From positions 1 to 33,258 of the IMG/VR virus record IMGVR_UViG_3300025648_000053: a stretch of 33,258 nucleotides of DNA. One strand, given 5' to 3'. This DNA comes from a virus. The position numbers were made by a program, and so were the translations under genes. This document shows positions 13,217 to 30,578 of the stretch, piece by piece. The stretch's first letter is position 1, and each line of letters begins with the position of its first letter. The notes beneath the pieces were generated by a model. The model saw only the letters and a program-made list of their open reading frames with translations. It ran no database searches and was not told the DNA's origin.

Positions 13217-13275
13217 GCCGTCACCTTCGTAAACAAAACTTCACGCGCCATCCGAATGATGTCATCGCGGGTCAT
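13213..13275 (-). CDS. 20-residue micro-ORF (MTRDD start)
   Basis: ATG at 13275 follows AGGA with about 8 bases of spacing and gives MTRDDIIRMAREVLFTKVTA. The start lies inside the last 14 bases of csrA; the stop overlaps the next ATG. MTRDDIIRMARE is a frequent N-terminus of short phage proteins whose later part carries EREACAKVCE, as in the 67-residue neighbour. It may therefore be a truncated copy kept as a coupling leader, or a real micro-protein. Confidence 0.4.
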   Translation of the reverse strand: MTRDDIIRMAREVLFTKVTA

Positions 13276-13277
13276 GG
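13262..13277. repeat. 16-bp direct repeat copy 2 at the csrA 3' end
   Basis: Identical to 13067-13082. It encodes the last residues of CsrA (HDPR, stop) and, in another frame, MTRD of the 20-residue ORF. Confidence 0.85.
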
Positions 13278-13435
13278 TCTTGATCCTCTTCGACTAGTTC
13301 ACCGCGCAGGATCTTCACGTCCCGGGGCGCATCAATCCCAATTCGCATCTGGTTCCCGCGATTGTCCAGAAAGTAGACCTTCACATCGTCACCGATCTGG
13401 AACCAGTCCCCGGGCTTCCGTGTAAGGACGAGCAT
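13262..13435 (-). CDS. csrA: Phage-encoded CsrA/RsmA translational regulator
   Basis: Start is ATG 13435 (TGATG overlap with the methyltransferase C-terminal ORF), with AGGAAA upstream. The 57-residue product begins MLVLTRKPGDWFQIGDDVKV and continues GNQMRIGIDAPRDVKILRGE, matching CsrA along its length (usual length about 61). The RNA-contact residues L4 and R44 are both present; H43 and E45 of E. coli CsrA are L and G here. CsrA dimers bind GGA motifs in hairpin loops, often over ribosome-binding sites, and repress or stabilise mRNAs. It is in the early operon, so it could reset host carbon storage, motility or biofilm control, or act on the phage's own mRNAs (see the hairpin at 28263-28280). 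Confidence 0.93.
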   Translation of the reverse strand: MLVLTRKPGDWFQIGDDVKVYFLDNRGNQMRIGIDAPRDVKILRGELVEEDQDHDPR

Positions 13436-13827
13436 CAGTTGTTTCCTTTGCCAGCAATCGTGCTGACCATTTGGATGCGTTGACCGATCCAGCGCATGAC
13501 TGGAACTGCCATAGAGTTGCCCAACGCCTTGTATCGAGGGCCGTCCGATGCTAACTTGTTGCGGTAAGGGATTAACGTGTAATCGTCTGGAAAGCCCTGT
13601 AGACGCTCGCACTCGCGCGGCGTCAGGCGGCGAACTTGCATAGCACTGGCAACGCCCTGCAACCCCGTCGTGTCCAACGTGTACATCGTGCCATCGTCTT
13701 TCCAGCCAGCGCCGTTCTGGGTTTTGTCGCGGCTTGAAATATCAGCCAACGCGATCGGCTGGGTAACTGCCACGGACTGCGGCACCGGCTGCGCTATTGC
13801 CAGCGTCTGATTCTTAGTTAGCGGCAT
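13435..13827 (-). CDS. DNA cytosine-5 methyltransferase, C-terminal part (separate ORF)
   Basis: The open frame reaches ATG 13893, but ATG 13827 (MPLTKNQTLAIAQ) has the better GAGGAA ribosome-binding site and is chosen here (130 residues; 152 from 13893). It contains C5-methyltransferase motif IX (VRRLTPRECERLQGFPD) and motif X (GPRYKALGNSMAVPVMRWIG), needed for target recognition and folding. The preceding part (PIALADISSRDKTQNGAGWK) looks like the variable target-recognition region. These parts complete the enzyme whose catalytic half is encoded by 13883-14719. The stop overlaps csrA. Confidence 0.8.
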   Translation of the reverse strand: MPLTKNQTLAIAQPVPQSVAVTQPIALADISSRDKTQNGAGWKDDGTMYTLDTTGLQGVASAMQVRRLTPRECERLQGFPDDYTLIPYRNKLASDGPRYKALGNSMAVPVMRWIGQRIQMVSTIAGKGNN

Positions 13828-20961: not shown

Positions 20962-21207
20962 ATGAAACACCGTCGCGACCGGGGTGAAGAACACGGCATG
21001 AAGCGGTACGCCCGTGGATTGCGTGACGAAGAGGCTCAATACAAAGCCCATCGAGAACACGCCAAATCGGAAGCGCACCGATTGGCAAAGGCGGCGGGTG
21101 GCACGTTCTACGAAAACGTTGAGCCGCCCCCGGTCGGCGGCAGAAGCCTTCAGGTTGTGAACCCAGCCGCTAGCGAAATGGCGCACCACTTTGAGGACGC
21201 AGAGTGA
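20962..21207 (+). CDS. Small charged hypothetical protein
   Basis: The 81-residue protein is charged and helical (MKHRRDRGEEHGMKRYARGL, AHREHAKSEAHRLAKAAGGT). It ends ASEMAHHFEDAE, repeating the MAHHFxD motif of its upstream neighbour. The stop overlaps the next start. No family recognised. Confidence 0.6.
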   Translation: MKHRRDRGEEHGMKRYARGLRDEEAQYKAHREHAKSEAHRLAKAAGGTFYENVEPPPVGGRSLQVVNPAASEMAHHFEDAE

Positions 21208-23951: not shown

Positions 23952-26213
23952 GTGGCTTACGATTTAGACGAGTCTGCCAAGACTGAACAAGACATTATTG
24001 TCGAGTGTCAGGAGCGATTCCGTCTCGCGGTTGCCGCTGAGACCGAGAACCGCAAGGCGGCTCTGGAAGACATTCGGTTCGCTAACGGCGAACAATGGCC
24101 CGACGAGATCCTGAACGGTCGCATGGCAGACGAGCGTCCGTGCCTGACCATCAACATCACGGATGCGATGCGACGCCGGGTCACCAACGCTTTGCGCGAG
24201 AACCGCCCCCGCATCAAGTATCACCCGGTCGGCAACGGCGCCGACGTACAGACGGCCCGAGTTCGTACCGGGCTGGTACGCCACATTGAAGAGCGGTCAA
24301 ACGCCGAGTACGCCTATGACTGCGCCGTGGAGTCTGCGGTCACGGGCGGTTGGGGCTACCTGCGGGTGGGTACGGAATACGTTGATGAGCGATCCTTTGA
24401 TCAGGATCTGATGATCGAATCCATCCGCAACCCCTTCACGGTCTACTTGGATCCGGCGTCACGGATGCCCGATGGCTCTGACGCCTCATGGGCGGTCGTG
24501 TCGGACATGATCCGCAGGGACGAATACCGTCAGAAGTACGGTCACGTTGACGGTGACGGTTGGCGGCAGATGGGCGACGGCGACAGCAACGCCGACTGGG
24601 CGAACAAGGAAGAACTGCGCCTCGCGGAATACTGGCGCATCGTGCGCCGTGAAGAGACCCTGTACCTGCTCTCAGACGGATCTGCAAAGTTCGCTGATGA
24701 GATGCCAAAAAAGGACGTGATGGAGGCTGTTGGCCTTCAGATCGTCCGTGAGCGTTCCGTCCTGCGCAAGCGGGTGGAGTGGCATCTCCTGAGCGCAACC
24801 CGAATTCTTGATAGCCGCGATTGGCCCGGGAAGTGGATCCCGATCATCCCGGTCTACGGGCGCGAGTGCGACATCAACGGCAAGGTTGTCCGCAAGGGCA
24901 TGATCCGCGACCTGCGCGATCCCGCCCGGATGTACAATTACGCCCAGACCGCCAAGACGGAAGCCTACGCCCTCCAGCCCAAAGCCCCGTGGCTCATGGT
25001 GGCGGGTCAGATGGAAGGGCATGAGGCAGCGTGGCGTGACGCCAACCGCAAGCCGATCGTGGCCCTTCCGTACACCCCGGTCCAACTGCCCGACGGCAGC
25101 ATTGCCCCGCCCCCAGAGCGCCAGATGCCCCCGCAGCCCAACTCAGGGTTCGCGGAGTGGGGCGAGAGCACGAAATCAGACTTTCTGGCCGTGGCTGGAA
25201 TGGTGGGCGAACCGGATCAGGACGCCCAAGGCGAAGTGGTCTCTGGCGTCGCTCTGAAGCGTCGTCAGGGTATGACCGACGTGGCGCACTTCGACTATGC
25301 CGACAACCTGTCGCGGTCGCTGAAGCACCTTGGGAACGTCCTGTCGGACCTGATCCCGCACATCTACGACGTACCTCGGATGCAGCGCATCATCGGTGAC
25401 GACGGAGTGCCGTCCATGTCGCAGATCAATCAAAAGGTCGTTGACCCCATGACCCAAGCGGTCATCAAGGTTAAGAACGACATGACGGGCGGGGCGTACG
25501 ACACGGTGGTGGACACGGGGCCGGGCTACCAGACCAAGCGCGAGGAAGCCGCAGACGCAATGCTGCAACTCCTCTCAACCCCGCTGGGCGAGTCGGTGGC
25601 GGCGAATGCTGGCGACGTGGTCATCCGGTCTCTGGACTTCCCAGAGAGCGAGACGATTGCCGACCGTATTGCAGCGACCATCCCGGCGGCGAACATCGAC
25701 AAGGACAGCGACATCCCGCCGAAGGCGCAGATGATGATCAAGTCCTTGCAGGGCCAATTGCAGCAGATGCAGCAGCAGTCAATGGCGCTGGAATTGGAAC
25801 TCAAGGCGAAGCACGGTCTGGAGCAAATGCGCCAGCAGGGCGAGACGCAGCGTCTTCTGATCAAGGAGCGTTCGGCAAACGACCGCAAGGACAAGGAACT
25901 CCAAGTCCGACGCGAGGACGTGATGACCAAGGCGCATACCGCGATGCACGACACTCACATCAAGGCGGTTACTGCCCACGACGTGGCAGAGATCAACCAG
26001 ACGGGCAAGATTCTGGATACCCATATCGCCCAACGATACAACGAAAGCGCGACCAAGGAAGCCTTGGAAGACGCCGATCGTGCGGCTCATATGCCCGAGG
26101 AACCGGATGAATACCATTCGGCCTTGATCAAGGACTCGCTGACTCGGCACGGCTTTGAAGCCACACCGGAAGCGATTAGGCACATCTACAGAACTCATCA
26201 CGGGCTTGCATGA
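23952..26213 (+). CDS. Portal protein (P22 gp1 family)
   Basis: The 753-residue protein starts at GTG 23952 three bases after the terminase stop. Family features are the N-terminal helix ERFRLAVAAETENRKAALED, IRFANGEQWPDEI, CLTINITDAMRRRVTNALRE, VESAVTGGWGYLRVGTEY and the P22-type YLDPASRMPDGSDASWAVVS. The end is a long Q/K-rich helix (QGQLQQMQQQSMALELELKA) like the P22 barrel. It forms the dodecameric DNA channel. Length compares with 725 in P22. Confidence 0.92.
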   Translation: MAYDLDESAKTEQDIIVECQERFRLAVAAETENRKAALEDIRFANGEQWPDEILNGRMADERPCLTINITDAMRRRVTNALRENRPRIKYHPVGNGADVQTARVRTGLVRHIEERSNAEYAYDCAVESAVTGGWGYLRVGTEYVDERSFDQDLMIESIRNPFTVYLDPASRMPDGSDASWAVVSDMIRRDEYRQKYGHVDGDGWRQMGDGDSNADWANKEELRLAEYWRIVRREETLYLLSDGSAKFADEMPKKDVMEAVGLQIVRERSVLRKRVEWHLLSATRILDSRDWPGKWIPIIPVYGRECDINGKVVRKGMIRDLRDPARMYNYAQTAKTEAYALQPKAPWLMVAGQMEGHEAAWRDANRKPIVALPYTPVQLPDGSIAPPPERQMPPQPNSGFAEWGESTKSDFLAVAGMVGEPDQDAQGEVVSGVALKRRQGMTDVAHFDYADNLSRSLKHLGNVLSDLIPHIYDVPRMQRIIGDDGVPSMSQINQKVVDPMTQAVIKVKNDMTGGAYDTVVDTGPGYQTKREEAADAMLQLLSTPLGESVAANAGDVVIRSLDFPESETIADRIAATIPAANIDKDSDIPPKAQMMIKSLQGQLQQMQQQSMALELELKAKHGLEQMRQQGETQRLLIKERSANDRKDKELQVRREDVMTKAHTAMHDTHIKAVTAHDVAEINQTGKILDTHIAQRYNESATKEALEDADRAAHMPEEPDEYHSALIKDSLTRHGFEATPEAIRHIYRTHHGLA

Positions 26214-27244
26214 ACCCGTATGACCAGACGCTGCAAAATGTAGCCTCTGAGAACCCATACGACGCGACCGTTAGAAAGGTCTACCACGGGACGCCACATC
26301 GGTTTGCGCCGACTGCCAACAACCCGTTGGGTGAATTTGATCACTCCAAGATGGGTACTGGAGAGGGGGCGCAAGCGTATGGGTGGGGAACCTATTTGGC
26401 AGAGAACAAAAAGGTTGCCGACACTTATCGCAAAGACCTTTCCAATTACGAACAGCCGTTCATCCAGTTTGGGAAAACCAAGATTGCTGGAAACGCTTTA
26501 AGCGATGTTGATCTGCGAGCGTTTAAGCATCTTGAGTCAGGCCAGAAAATGGCTGGGCAGTTCAAACACAACACTCACTATTACGCAAAGAAATCTGCGG
26601 AACGTGATGAAGAGGCGTTAAAGCGGCTAGAGGAATTCGGAAGAGACGTGAAGTTTGGACACGAAATCAATCGTGGACACACTTATCACGTTGAGATTCC
26701 AGAGCGACACGTCAAGAGAATGCTTGATTGGGACGCCTCTTTAGACGATCAGCATGAAGCGGTGAAAAAGGCGATTAATCACGTCGGAGTGAATCCGCAA
26801 TCAATCGGAAGACTAGCCGCTAGCAAAATCAAGTTGCTTGCCGAATCGCCGGGTCTGGCAGATTGGGCAAAACGCGATCTATTGAAAGACGCAAGCAATT
26901 TGGAAAGCCCACACGTTTCAATGCAATACATATCGGGTACGTTGAAGCGAATGCCGTTGGAATATGGGATTAGCGAAAGTCACGGCCCATTCCAGTCTCA
27001 TGCAAAAGATTTTCTGAAATTGGTTAAGGCGTCTGATTACGTTCCAAACATGAATACAGGCGGCGGTGCTTACGGGCTGTTGTCGGCATTCTTGGGTGGC
27101 GACAGAGAAGCCAGCGAACACTTGCTGTCATTCGGTAGCCCGGGCATCAAGTACAAAGACGCAGCGAGTCGAGGCGCGGAGGAGGGAACCCGCAACTTCG
27201 TGTTGATTGATCCGTCCATAGCCAAAATTGTGGAGCGGGAATGA
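26210..27244 (+). CDS. ADP-ribosyltransferase-like protein (YHGTPH type)
   Basis: The 344-residue protein starts in an ATGA overlap with portal. VYHGTPHRF (about 24-32), FDHSKMGTGEGAQAYGWGTY, LAENKKVADTY and the end EEGTRNFVLIDPSIAKIVER form the conserved core of a phage/polyvalent-protein ART-like family (H...G.GTY.AE...N.V..D). The middle (about 115-300) is helical. Catalytic activity is not proved. Base composition is lower in G+C than portal and coat. It may be an injected effector or act on host RNA polymerase or translation proteins, as T4 Alt and Mod do. Confidence 0.72.
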   Translation: MNPYDQTLQNVASENPYDATVRKVYHGTPHRFAPTANNPLGEFDHSKMGTGEGAQAYGWGTYLAENKKVADTYRKDLSNYEQPFIQFGKTKIAGNALSDVDLRAFKHLESGQKMAGQFKHNTHYYAKKSAERDEEALKRLEEFGRDVKFGHEINRGHTYHVEIPERHVKRMLDWDASLDDQHEAVKKAINHVGVNPQSIGRLAASKIKLLAESPGLADWAKRDLLKDASNLESPHVSMQYISGTLKRMPLEYGISESHGPFQSHAKDFLKLVKASDYVPNMNTGGGAYGLLSAFLGGDREASEHLLSFGSPGIKYKDAASRGAEEGTRNFVLIDPSIAKIVERE

Positions 27245-27678
27245 TGTCGTATCAGGACGTTTTGAACTATCAAGGTTCGCACCGTCCTGCGGGTAAGGAT
27301 CATGGCGCACCGTTGCATGATTTGACGCGCGTGTACCCAGATGATGTGTATGGGTCAAGGGCGGCGCAATATTACGGGCATTACGGCAACAACCATCAAA
27401 GTGATCGTGAATCTTTTGAAACTGCCAAGCGGTATCGCAATCAGCCAGACAAACTGATTCGCATCCACAGGGCAGTTTCAAAAGATGAACACAAAGCGAC
27501 TGAGATCAACCCGGGCGACTGGGTGACGATCAGTCATCGGTATGCAAAAGAACACGGTGAAGGGCCATTGAAAGGCGACTACAAAATCCTTTCTAAGGTT
27601 GTTCCAGCAAAACACATTTACACTAGCGGCGATAGCATCCATGAATGGGGCTATCACCCTGATGAAAAGCACGAATGA
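27241..27678 (+). CDS. Second ADP-ribosyltransferase-like protein (R-S-E type pattern)
   Basis: The 145-residue protein starts ATGATG in an overlap with the first ART. KLIRIHRAVS (R74/R77), INPGDWVTISHRYAKEHGEG (S98) and SIHEWGYHP (E135) give the R, S and E of R-S-E ARTs in order. KILSKVVPAKHIYTSGDS is also usual in phage-borne members. DDVYGSRAAQYYG opens the domain. Its pairing with the first ART suggests two effectors or one system. Confidence 0.7.
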   Translation: MMSYQDVLNYQGSHRPAGKDHGAPLHDLTRVYPDDVYGSRAAQYYGHYGNNHQSDRESFETAKRYRNQPDKLIRIHRAVSKDEHKATEINPGDWVTISHRYAKEHGEGPLKGDYKILSKVVPAKHIYTSGDSIHEWGYHPDEKHE

Positions 27679-28112
27679 CAACTAAACAGGGTGGGTATGC
27701 TGGCGTTCTTGGAATGCCGAAACACGCAACATCATTTGAGCCAATTGATCCAGAACACGATCTAGGGCCGTATAAAGCGGGACACGAAATCCACAACACG
27801 GGATCAATTTCAGCGTCACTTGAGGACGGCTATGTAGTTGAGCCGGGAATTCAGAAAGTCCCTTTAAAACACTTTTATGGCGGCGAACGTCCAAAGTTGG
27901 CGGGGTCAAGTGACGATGTTCGCAGGACGAAACACCTTGCCGAACAAATCAAAAAATCAAAACGCTTAGATCCTTTGATCGTAGCGATTGACGAGGAAGG
28001 GCCATACGTTTTAGAAGGTGGGCATCGGTTGGACGCTTCGTATTTGCTGAATGGAACTCATATCCCGGCAATGGTTGTGCGTCACGCTGGTGTTCCATTG
28101 TTCAAGAAATAA
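27675..28112 (+). CDS. ParB/Srx-like domain protein
   Basis: The 145-residue protein has KHLAEQIKKSKRLDPLIVAI, DEEGPYVLEGGHRLDASYLL, NGTHIPAMVVRHAG (about 87-138), the ParB N-terminal/sulfiredoxin pattern with EGGHR at 114-118. No helix-turn-helix follows, so it is not a plasmid-type ParB. Some stand-alone ParB-like domains act as CTPases or nucleases. The start MTTKQGGYAGVLGMPKHA resembles KKGYAEVLGEAEKH of the His-rich protein. It is coupled to the second ART and ends the cassette before a hairpin-rich spacer. Confidence 0.7.
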   Translation: MTTKQGGYAGVLGMPKHATSFEPIDPEHDLGPYKAGHEIHNTGSISASLEDGYVVEPGIQKVPLKHFYGGERPKLAGSSDDVRRTKHLAEQIKKSKRLDPLIVAIDEEGPYVLEGGHRLDASYLLNGTHIPAMVVRHAGVPLFKK

Positions 28113-28238
28113 GCCAGCCGCTTTTCCATCCCCCTAGCGGCCTTTGACTGGCTCGGCAGTCTCTGGCGAATAACCGAGCATCTATTTTCGACCCTGAGGT
28201 CTGGCAGACCACGGGGAACGGTATGTCTTTGCCCTGAA
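28113..28238 (+). ncRNA. Hairpin-rich intergenic region before the scaffold gene
   Basis: Three stems follow one another: nested GCCAG/CTGGC with CCGCT/AGCGG (28113-28152), GCTCGG/CCGAGC with a 17-base loop (28151-28179), and GGTCT-GGC-AGACC (28198-28210). A GGA occurs at 28215-28217. It is the longest non-coding stretch of the late region (165 bases with the terminator and leader). It may be a regulatory leader or small RNA; no known family recognised. Confidence 0.45.
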
Positions 28239-28262
28239 CTCAGCAGCATCTGAGGGTTTTTT
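28239..28262 (+). terminator. Probable intrinsic terminator
   Basis: CTCAG-CAGCAT-CTGAG followed by GG and six T (28257-28262). The stem is short (5 bp), so termination may be partial and let late transcription continue into scaffold and coat. Confidence 0.55.
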
Positions 28263-28280
28263 CGTGAGTGGAGACTCATG
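28263..28280 (+). promoter_or_regulatory. Hairpin with GGAG loop over the scaffold start
   Basis: CGTGAGT pairs with ACTCATG (7 bp with one G-U) around the loop GGAG (28270-28273). The loop is the ribosome-binding site and the 3' arm holds the ATG. Displaying GGA in a loop is the usual CsrA target layout, and the phage encodes a CsrA. Confidence 0.55.
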
Positions 28281-29246
28281 GCAATTAAATCTGTTACAGC
28301 CGATACGCTGGTGGAACTGGCTGCGAACCAGCCCAACCCTGCCGAAATTCAGAATGCTGACCAGATGGTCGCTCAAGCCATCACGGTCAACGAACTGAAT
28401 AACCCGATCGTGGGATCTGGAGAGGAACGCTCTTCAGACGCACCACCGGAGCCGCAGAGCGGGTCAAAGCAGTCAGCCAAGAAGTCCTCAAAGCATGAGG
28501 TTCAGGGCCGCATAGACGAACTTACGCGCCTTCGTAAAGAAGCCGAAGAGTTTGCCGAATCGGAGTGGAACTCGCGCCAAGAGGCAGAGCGGCGTGTGGC
28601 TGAACTTGAAGCACAGATTAAGGCTCTGGATGCAACCCGAGTACCAGAAGCCCCTAAGCAGGACGAACTCAGGGAACCGCAGGAAGCCGATTTTAAGGAC
28701 ATCTCGTCCTTCACCAAGGCGTGGAGCGAGTACACCCTCAAATTGGCTGAGAAACGGGCTACGGAAGCCCGGGAGCAGGAGCGTAATCGCCTTCTAATGG
28801 AGGTAGAGAACGAGCGCCTGAAGACCCGGATTGACGCAGCCAAGGCACAGTTGAGTGACTTCGATGAGGTCATTCAGGCTGCACCCCGGGACCGCACGAT
28901 TCCCGCCCACATTGAACGGGCGATTCGTGAGTCCGACTTCGGCCCCCATCTGGCCTATCACCTCGCCAAGAATGGCGAGGAGGAAGCCCGGATCTTCTCC
29001 ATGTCCGCTGCTAAGGCACTTCTGGAACTCGGGAAGATTGAAGACAAATACGCGAGTCGGGTGAAGGTGGAATCAACCACCGACCCGAAGCCTCGCACCA
29101 CCACTCTTGAAACAACCCGCGCCCCCGCGCCAGTTTCGAGCATCAAAGCCGACTCAGGAACGGTCACGACAACTTCGTCGCAAGCGACAAGTTTCGCAGA
29201 GTACCGTCGCCTGAGAATGGAAGAGATGCGCCGCAACCGACGCTAA
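28278..29246 (+). CDS. Scaffolding protein
   Basis: The 322-residue protein is charged and mostly helical with a coiled coil (EVQGRIDELTRLRKEAEEFA, SRQEAERRVAELEAQIKALD). The C-terminus SFAEYRRLRMEEMRRNRR is basic and helical, as in P22 gp8 where it binds coat. Order portal-scaffold-coat and length (P22 gp8 is 303) agree. It guides procapsid assembly and leaves before packaging. Only four bases lie between GGAG and ATG. Confidence 0.85.
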   Translation: MAIKSVTADTLVELAANQPNPAEIQNADQMVAQAITVNELNNPIVGSGEERSSDAPPEPQSGSKQSAKKSSKHEVQGRIDELTRLRKEAEEFAESEWNSRQEAERRVAELEAQIKALDATRVPEAPKQDELREPQEADFKDISSFTKAWSEYTLKLAEKRATEAREQERNRLLMEVENERLKTRIDAAKAQLSDFDEVIQAAPRDRTIPAHIERAIRESDFGPHLAYHLAKNGEEEARIFSMSAAKALLELGKIEDKYASRVKVESTTDPKPRTTTLETTRAPAPVSSIKADSGTVTTTSSQATSFAEYRRLRMEEMRRNRR

Positions 29247-29270: not shown

Positions 29271-30578
29271 ATGGCTAATAACCTTCTGACTATCAGCCAG
29301 ATCACGAACGAGGGCCTGATGGTCCTTGAGAACGATCTGGTATTCGCTGACCACTGCAATCGGCAGTACGCATCACAGTTCGCTCTCAGCGGGGCGAAAG
29401 TGGGCTATACCGTGTCCGTCCGCAAGCCCCCGCGCTACATCGGCACGACTGGTCCTGCGCTCAACGTGGAAGACACAGTTGAGTCGTATGTGCCCGTGAC
29501 GCTTTCAACCCAATTCCACGTTGACGTGCAATTCACGACCGCCGATTTGGCGACCAGCGTGGATCTGTTCAAAGAGCGTGTGATCAACCCGGCTGTTGCT
29601 GCGGTTGCCAACAAGATCGACCGCGACGGTCTGACCTACGCCTACCAGAACGCGCCGAATGCCGTGGGTACGCCGGGGACGCCTCCTGCGTCGTTCCTGT
29701 CGTTCACCCTCGCGGGTGCGATTTTGGACGGTGAAGCCGCGCCCCGTGACGGTTCGCGTGTCGTCATCCTTGATCCGTTCAGCATGGCTTACGCGCAGGA
29801 CAGCGTGAAGGGTCTCTTCAACCCACAGGCGCAGGTCGCTGAGCAGATTGAAAAGGGTCTCGTTGCGAAGCAGTTCGCTGGCTTTGACTGGTACATGGAC
29901 CAGAACGTCGTGTCGTACACCGTTGGCGCTCAGGGCGGTACGCCGACCCTCGCCAACAACACGTCGTCCTGCTGGTTGGCTTCGGGTACGGCGCTCAACG
30001 GTCTTGTGCAGTCCACGGGCTGGACGGCGGCTGCGGCTGCGCGCCTCACGGTCGGTGACATCATCACCGTTTCAGGCGTGTACGCTGCCAACCCGCAAAA
30101 CCGTGGCGCATACGGTTCTAACCGTCAGCGTCAGTTCGTCGTGATCCCGCCACAGGCGACGATCTCAAACGGTTCGTACAACTCAACCACGGGCGTCTAC
30201 TCGTCGTCGTCGGGTGGCTTGTTGGACTTCTACGTCCGCAACGTCGGCATCTACGGCGGTCAGTTCCAGAACATCACGGCGCAGCCAGCGAGCAATGCCG
30301 CGATTCAGGTCTGGGGCAGCGCGTCGGGCGCGTCGGCTGGTGTCGTCACTCCGCAGAATATTGCCATGCACCGCGACGCCTTCGCGCTCGCGTTTGCTGA
30401 CCTTGATCTGCCGGGCGGCGTTGACATGGCGGCTCGCGCCGTTGACGAGGAGGCTGGCATCAACTTCCGTGTTGTGCGCCAGTACACGATAAACAACGAC
30501 TCGTTGCCGACTCGTTTTGACGTGTTGTACGGCTATGCGGGTCTGTACCCGGAACTTGCCGTGCGAATCGCTGGCTAA
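29271..30578 (+). CDS. Major capsid protein (P22 coat family)
   Basis: The 435-residue protein has P22 coat-family marks: LMVLENDLVFADHCNRQYAS, VGYTVSVRKPPRYIG, HVDVQFTTADLATSVDLFKE, RVINPAVAAVANKIDRDGLT, and the late MHRDAFALAFADLDLP. Length equals P22 gp5 (430). The region SCWLASGTALNGLVQSTGWT to GAYGSNRQRQF includes the insertion-domain position. A ribosome-binding GGAG (29259-29262) lies in a short stem GCTC/GAGC. The product builds the icosahedral head. Confidence 0.93.
   Translation: MANNLLTISQITNEGLMVLENDLVFADHCNRQYASQFALSGAKVGYTVSVRKPPRYIGTTGPALNVEDTVESYVPVTLSTQFHVDVQFTTADLATSVDLFKERVINPAVAAVANKIDRDGLTYAYQNAPNAVGTPGTPPASFLSFTLAGAILDGEAAPRDGSRVVILDPFSMAYAQDSVKGLFNPQAQVAEQIEKGLVAKQFAGFDWYMDQNVVSYTVGAQGGTPTLANNTSSCWLASGTALNGLVQSTGWTAAAAARLTVGDIITVSGVYAANPQNRGAYGSNRQRQFVVIPPQATISNGSYNSTTGVYSSSSGGLLDFYVRNVGIYGGQFQNITAQPASNAAIQVWGSASGASAGVVTPQNIAMHRDAFALAFADLDLPGGVDMAARAVDEEAGINFRVVRQYTINNDSLPTRFDVLYGYAGLYPELAVRIAG

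Follow-up and report, generated by a model that had tools for sequence, protein, structure and literature searches.

The scaffold gene of the phage recorded as IMG/VR virus IMGVR_UViG_3300025648_000053 begins inside an RNA hairpin, and the same phage encodes CsrA. An earlier note on this DNA linked the two, suggesting that CsrA binds the hairpin and holds back scaffold translation. We ask what RNA element the hairpin belongs to, which gene it controls and whether CsrA takes part. The window, that is, the whole stretch of DNA analysed, is 33,258 nucleotides long (positions 1 to 33,258 of the record).

Results

The start hairpin of the scaffold gene

The gene at 28278 had been taken for the scaffold gene, and this identification holds: its product matches phrog_8865 and the next gene encodes a P22-type coat protein (Table 1). 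Three genes lie between the portal and scaffold genes (26210-28112). One has a YHGTPH motif resembling ADP-ribosyltransferases, one matches a phrog annotated as ParB C-terminal domain, and one encodes a ParB-like protein.

Direct reading of the sequence and folding both bear out the 7-bp hairpin with one G.U pair and the loop GGAG. The pairs are C28263-G28280, G28264.U28279, U28265-A28278, G28266-C28277, A28267-U28276, G28268-C28275 and U28269-A28274. The ribosome-binding site is in the loop and the ATG (28278-28280) is within the 3' arm, as the earlier note had said. The hairpin alone has an energy of -7.5 kcal/mol (z -3.67), and both the minimum-energy fold and the centroid fold of the surrounding region contain it. 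Of 5000 dinucleotide shuffles of the window leader, 96 gave a start-codon hairpin of at least this strength, and 3 gave one that also had GGA in its loop. Among the 43 gene starts of the window, its strength is tied only by the start at 21204. The latter hairpin (21185-21206, CACUUUG-AGGACG-CAGAGUG) has GGA in the loop, contains the GTG start of ORF 21204 and has a score equal to that of the scaffold hairpin.

The pseudoknot

Directly upstream of the start hairpin there is an H-type pseudoknot (28234-28254), the half of the element that the earlier note had missed. The hairpin at 28239-28254 is its stem 2, and the CUG located 2-3 nt upstream pairs with the first three loop bases, CAG. We read the predicted element at 28234-28280, made of the 21-nt pseudoknot, an 8-nt linker and the start hairpin, as a conserved RNA leader that acts in cis on the scaffold gene. 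A further hairpin lies upstream; of the relatives, only the nearest ones (L008, L014, L090) share its core GGUCUGGCAGACC.

Table 1. Positions of the leader elements and of the genes discussed in the text (window coordinates).
Feature	Position	Strand	Remarks
csrA	13262-13435	-	57 aa; PF02599, E = 1.5e-21
Upstream hairpin, CCCUG-A-GGUCU-GGC-AGACC-A-CGGGG	28192-28216	+	contains G's of the second GGA
Pseudoknot stem 1, 5' arm, CUG	28234-28236	+	pairs with 28244-28246; covariation
Pseudoknot loop 1, AA	28237-28238	+	UA or CA in most relatives
Pseudoknot stem 2, 5' arm, CUCAG	28239-28243	+	pairs with 28250-28254
Pseudoknot stem 1, 3' arm, CAG	28244-28246	+	covariation
Pseudoknot loop 3, CAU	28247-28249	+	
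Pseudoknot stem 2, 3' arm, CUGAG	28250-28254	+	folding, covariation
Linker, GGUUUUUU	28255-28262	+	8 nt, between pseudoknot and start hairpin
Start hairpin, CGUGAGU-GGAG-ACUCAUG	28263-28280	+	7-bp stem; Shine-Dalgarno box is the loop GGAG, 28270-28273
Scaffold gene	28278-29246	+	322 aa; phrog_8865, E = 5.5e-32; candidate controlled gene and proposed repressor
Major coat protein gene, P22 gp5 type	29271-30578	+	PF11651, phrog_283

Conservation and covariation

Relatives were collected by coat-protein and scaffold scans of viral contigs, one genome scan and GenBank phages, which yielded several hundred loci (L numbers below). Those with the leader were sampled through four coat-protein scans and one scaffold scan. 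We used a covariance-model and hand-anchored alignment; MAFFT on the first mixed set mis-registered the 5- and 6-nt loops. Dozens of P22-like phages, cultured ones included, have the pseudoknot and the start hairpin directly before the scaffold gene.

The nearest distinct relative, L090, has 58% scaffold identity and the hairpin CGUGAGU-GGG-ACUCAUG. Near relatives have CGUGG-GUAGA-CCAUG (L008), CGUGG-GAUGA-CCAUG (L014), CGUGGG-UAA-CCCAUG (L028) and CGUGAG-GAGA-CUCAUG (L124); farther ones have UGAG-GAAA-CUCA-UG, UAGG-GAAA-CCUA-UG, UGGA-GUAU-UCCA-UG and CGUU-GGGA-AACG-U-AUG. Double changes from G-C to A-U are seen repeatedly in the stem. Judged by these variants, the start hairpin is ancient, its loop is not.

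Stem 1 of the pseudoknot varies as CCG/CGG, CAG/CUG, CGG/CCG, CCU/AGG, GCU/AGC, AUC/GAU, ACC/GGU, ACG/CGU, GCC/GGC, GCG/CGC and ACU/AGU. When the geometry is kept rigid, complete Watson-Crick pairing is seen in 12 of the 23 distinct combinations of arms versus 1.2 expected, and none of 20,000 permutations was as good. In an ungapped alignment of 30 sequences, 99.3% of the pseudoknot cells are paired, two-sided changes occur at 8 of 9 pairs, and covariation is 0.650 versus 0.167 in shuffled alignments. When the pairing partners are slid by one column, only 42-54% of the pseudoknot cells are paired. In 30 full leaders of distant phages, the paired cells amount to 100% in stem 1, 100% in stem 2 and 97.4% in the start hairpin, with covariation of 0.649 versus 0.227 shuffled, and the start hairpin has two-sided changes at 3 of 4 pairs. 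Overall, pairing is 99.2-99.3% of cells across the two alignments, and the slide controls do not exceed 54%. The slide control and the test on distinct combinations carry the weight here, since related sequences inflate covariation shuffles; the alignment and its register were partly chosen by structure, and stem 1 is outside both covariance models.

A test for canonical pseudoknot geometry replaced a permissive scan that had a 38% false rate in GC-rich shuffles. Canonical pseudoknots were found in 21 of 25 nonredundant leaders of the window's clade versus 6% of shuffles, and in 68 of 102 nonredundant leaders of the wider set versus 3% of shuffles. None was found in the 31 leaders of a third, deeper clade, although the scaffolds are homologous. 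The G.U pairs fall in the start hairpin in the window's clade and in CCU/GGG of L220, L223 and L247, which indicates structure in the mRNA sense. Single-sequence folding z-scores are about 0 for most leaders, so that their stability is not unusual, and thus the case for structure rests on covariation.

Two structural variants were observed. In L017, an additional hairpin UUCGGUG...CACCGAA (1937-1972) separates the pseudoknot and the start hairpin. In the deeper clade without the pseudoknot, a start-codon hairpin CGUAGGG-AAU-CCCUAUG follows a GCGC-type hairpin (L064:1969-1987, L074:908-922); this is possibly another version of the same control.

Placement and distribution

The covariance model R1, built for the window's clade, matches the window at 28227-28283 (E = 9e-7) and the relatives at scaffold starts, with one match per record. 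Of 36 whole records, 26 gave a match to the scaffold leader at E < 1e-3 with the model R2, which was built for the distant set and leaves stem 1 unmodelled; second matches within a record are weak (E of 0.01 or worse). One confident match per record, at the scaffold start, points to an element with one target.

By eye, the leader was identified in cultured Vibrio phages VvAW1, 1.211, 1.183, 1.184, 41E34.2, D478 and FGH, and in Shewanella phage X14, Thalassomonas phage BA3 and Pseudomonas phage PAE2. The pseudoknot of VvAW1 is [AGC]UA(CCCAUG)[GCU]U(CAUGGG); stem 1 is [GGC]..[GCC] in X14 and [CCG]..[CGG] in BA3. The hosts of the leader are very different, from MAGs labelled Proteobacteria and Fibrobacteres to those of Vibrio, Shewanella and Pseudomonas phages. 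Xanthomonas phage PBR31 and its kin have the same start hairpin, preceded by what by eye is an apparently different, larger pseudoknot, with arms such as CCCAGAU/AUCUGGG (L183) and UCCCCAA/UUGGGGA (L181).

In Vibrio phages 1.211, 41E34.2, 1.184 and D478 (L427, L430, L432, L433), the GenBank scaffold start is an ATG inside the pseudoknot (ATGGCTACCAGTGG...), and the conserved scaffold start is 54 nt downstream of it. The leader can thus be used to correct annotated scaffold start codons.

Some relatives have unusual features near these genes. L030 contains a group I intron (2230-2954, RF00028, E = 2.3e-14) just 5' of the coat-gene match, and the first 48 codons of the coat gene are unmatched there. 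An extra ORF, HNH-like by eye, lies between scaffold and coat in L015 (2481-2990) and also in L065 and L070. In L177 (MW202674, 2227-3612) the coat gene is annotated as two pieces, and the roughly 220 nt that separate them hold a small ORF, possibly an intron or an insertion. A tRNA gene (RF00005) is located just 5' of the scaffold leader in L016 (1833-1905).

The CsrA hypothesis

The phage csrA gene is real and intact: the product matches PF02599, and the residues L4 and R44 are kept, as had been stated, and R6 as well. As in known CsrA targets, GGA is exposed in the loop of a hairpin that overlaps the Shine-Dalgarno box. However, the consensus of CsrA binding is A(N)GGA (PMC4066749), and the window site, GUGGA, does not match it. 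A(N)GGA occurs near 14 of the 43 gene starts of the window, that of csrA included. The start of the latter gene and the stop of the gene before it overlap in ATGA (minus strand, 13435-13450), and the Shine-Dalgarno box of csrA is AAAGGAAA. Since this sequence fits A(N)GGA, csrA itself would be a better sequence match than the scaffold gene if the phage CsrA represses any gene here.

The loop as a CsrA target does not hold up among the relatives. GGA is fully within the loop in 16 of 96 leaders. It is lost in the nearest relative, where the loop is GGG (L090), and in most others: GUAGA (L008), GUACAGA (L026), UAA (L028), and GAAA or GNNA in many. Conversely, loop GGA occurs in phages without csrA (BA3, 41E34.2, 1.183), since the Shine-Dalgarno box itself supplies GGA. 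A confident covariance-model match at the scaffold start was obtained in 33 distinct records (18-42 kb), and csrA was found in only two of them, this phage and VvAW1; the contigs may be fragments, which makes single absences of csrA weak, not the overall pattern. Nor was csrA found in ten further cultured phages carrying the leader. A csrA match is present in 86 phage records, and a P22-type coat gene is present in none of the 21 viral contigs whose csrA genes are the nearest.

A second GGA had been suggested to allow bridging by the CsrA dimer. It is indeed at 28215-28217, but its two G's are in, or adjoin the end of, the 3' arm of the hairpin 28192-28216, and being paired they are not readily accessible. 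The expectation that relatives keep the loop and csrA together gave a mixed outcome. It is borne out in VvAW1, which has csrA, the pseudoknot and the start hairpin with GGA in the loop (ACAGGAGAGAG). Three relatives of the deep clade have csrA (L064, L082, L038): the distant L064 lacks the pseudoknot and has a start hairpin with the loop AAU, in L082 nothing comparable to the hairpin precedes the scaffold gene, and L038 ends before the scaffold start.

Weighing the explanations

The earlier proposal thus stands in one part: a strongly selected hairpin hides the ribosome-binding site of the scaffold gene. The evidence goes against CsrA as the agent. We consider it very unlikely that CsrA of the phage or the host represses scaffold translation by binding the loop GGA and bridging it to the second GGA. 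The intact csrA gene, the GGAG loop over the start codon and the loop GGA in VvAW1, the only other pseudoknot-bearing phage with csrA, speak for it. As the main reading it was rejected on the tests of the loop, the consensus, the co-occurrence and the second site, with VvAW1 as an exception, and it leaves the pseudoknot unexplained. Against the background of 16/96, loop GGA in both carriers of csrA has a coincidence probability of about 3%, so CsrA may be an added layer in this phage and VvAW1. The leader looks like a scaffold-specific translation switch and not a CsrA target, since the fold recurs with or without csrA. The sequence comparisons establish the two RNA elements and the covariation within them, as well as their position in a single copy before the scaffold gene and their independence of csrA.

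Even less probable is that stem 2 and the U-run (28239-28262) act as an intrinsic terminator or attenuator separating the scaffold gene from the genes upstream. The window site scored as terminator-like, and the U-run is present in L090 too. However, the window has 7 terminator-like sites versus 14 expected by chance, and the U-run makes stem 2 terminator-like only in these two phages; nearly all other relatives lack it and have UUAAUU-like linkers, GGUUAAUU-like in most. This candidate was rejected. The main rival to feedback control is a ligand-free translational rheostat, in which the pseudoknot and the hairpin fix a low initiation rate, or time initiation, to set the scaffold/coat ratio. 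The same anatomy explains the covariation, an attenuator without a ligand would produce an identical signature in the sequences, and in distant phages 4-7 bp of the hairpin still cover the start. On the other hand, a plain hairpin would suffice to lower translation, and the exact geometry of the pseudoknot and the near-constant UA/CA of loop 1 suggest specific recognition; we regard the rheostat as unlikely, although less so than the other alternatives. Control of the scaffold by some other factor bound to the leader (coat, portal or another phage protein, a host protein, a small molecule) seems rather more doubtful still. Pseudoknots commonly serve as ligand sites, but such a factor would have to be available to every carrier, however diverse the hosts, and to act on the scaffold alone, and the leader has no Rfam riboswitch match.

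Discussion

A candidate translational operator

The scaffold gene is very probably regulated or restrained in translation, as suggested by the start hairpin with 97.4% of its cells paired and two-sided changes at 3 of 4 pairs, and it is likely that the leader elements lower its translation. The best overall explanation, held here with about equal belief and doubt, is that the leader is a conserved translational operator of the scaffold gene with autogenous feedback. The closed start hairpin would hide the Shine-Dalgarno box and the start codon and so hold back translation. Scaffold protein outside procapsids would bind the pseudoknot, and either stabilise the closed hairpin or block the 30S subunit. 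When assembly stalls, scaffold synthesis would be switched off, and when scaffold is consumed, it would come back on.

Because the hosts of the leader differ so widely, a ligand encoded by all carrier phages is favoured. The P22 scaffold is reportedly autoregulated (Wyckoff and Casjens 1985, as cited in PMC5744158), and T4 gp32 represses its own mRNA through a leader pseudoknot; by this analogy the scaffold protein comes first among the candidates, and we tentatively suggest it as the ligand. What argues against feedback is the deeper clade, whose homologous scaffolds have no pseudoknot before them. If the proposal is true, scaffold synthesis would be coupled to procapsid assembly in a large group of P22-like podoviruses. 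The claim that this is a previously undescribed RNA family, serving as the operator by which free scaffold represses its own translation throughout that group, is one for which our doubt slightly outweighs our belief.

Comparison with known systems

The scaffold leader resembles CsrA/RsmA targets (PMC4066749) in the loop GGA over the ribosome-binding site of a phage that encodes csrA, and differs from them in the missing A(N)GGA, the varying loop and the carriers nearly all devoid of csrA. Alleles of csrA are known on phages (PMC7366521), and that of the window is one more. In Rfam 15 there was no leader match in the window and 20 relatives; the matches elsewhere were sub-threshold chance ones, the group I intron and the tRNA. 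Nothing on this leader was found in the open literature (open-licence papers, exact-word matching).

The closest analogue is the operator of gene 32 in T4 and RB69, a leader pseudoknot of about 28 nt through which the product of the gene has been proved to repress its own translation (PMC535899). The scaffold leader likewise has a small H-type pseudoknot, of 21 nt, placed just ahead of where translation of a phage gene is initiated. However, the gene and the sequence are unrelated, and here the operator is predicted and the repressor is inferred. The gene 32 pseudoknot is followed by unstructured UUAAA/UAAA, whereas that of the scaffold leader is followed by a short linker and the start-codon hairpin. 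The controlled gene is the scaffold, and nothing homologous to gp32 or its operator was seen. A phage pseudoknot operator is thus of a known kind; this family and its link to the scaffold appear to be new.

Autoregulation of the P22 scaffolding gene 8 is said to have been described by Wyckoff and Casjens in 1985. This regulation is post-transcriptional and tied to assembly, and to our knowledge its RNA target was never defined. The phages considered here share with P22 a homologous head module, with P22-type coat and portal, and the scaffold as the regulated gene. However, the precedent concerns a phage without the pseudoknot leader, since gene 8 begins 13 nt past the portal gene. Forty years after that report, a compact covarying RNA element is seen at the same gene in relatives of P22, and its cultured carriers (VvAW1, BA3, X14, Vibrio 1.183) make sensing of capsid assembly and adjustment of scaffold synthesis testable.
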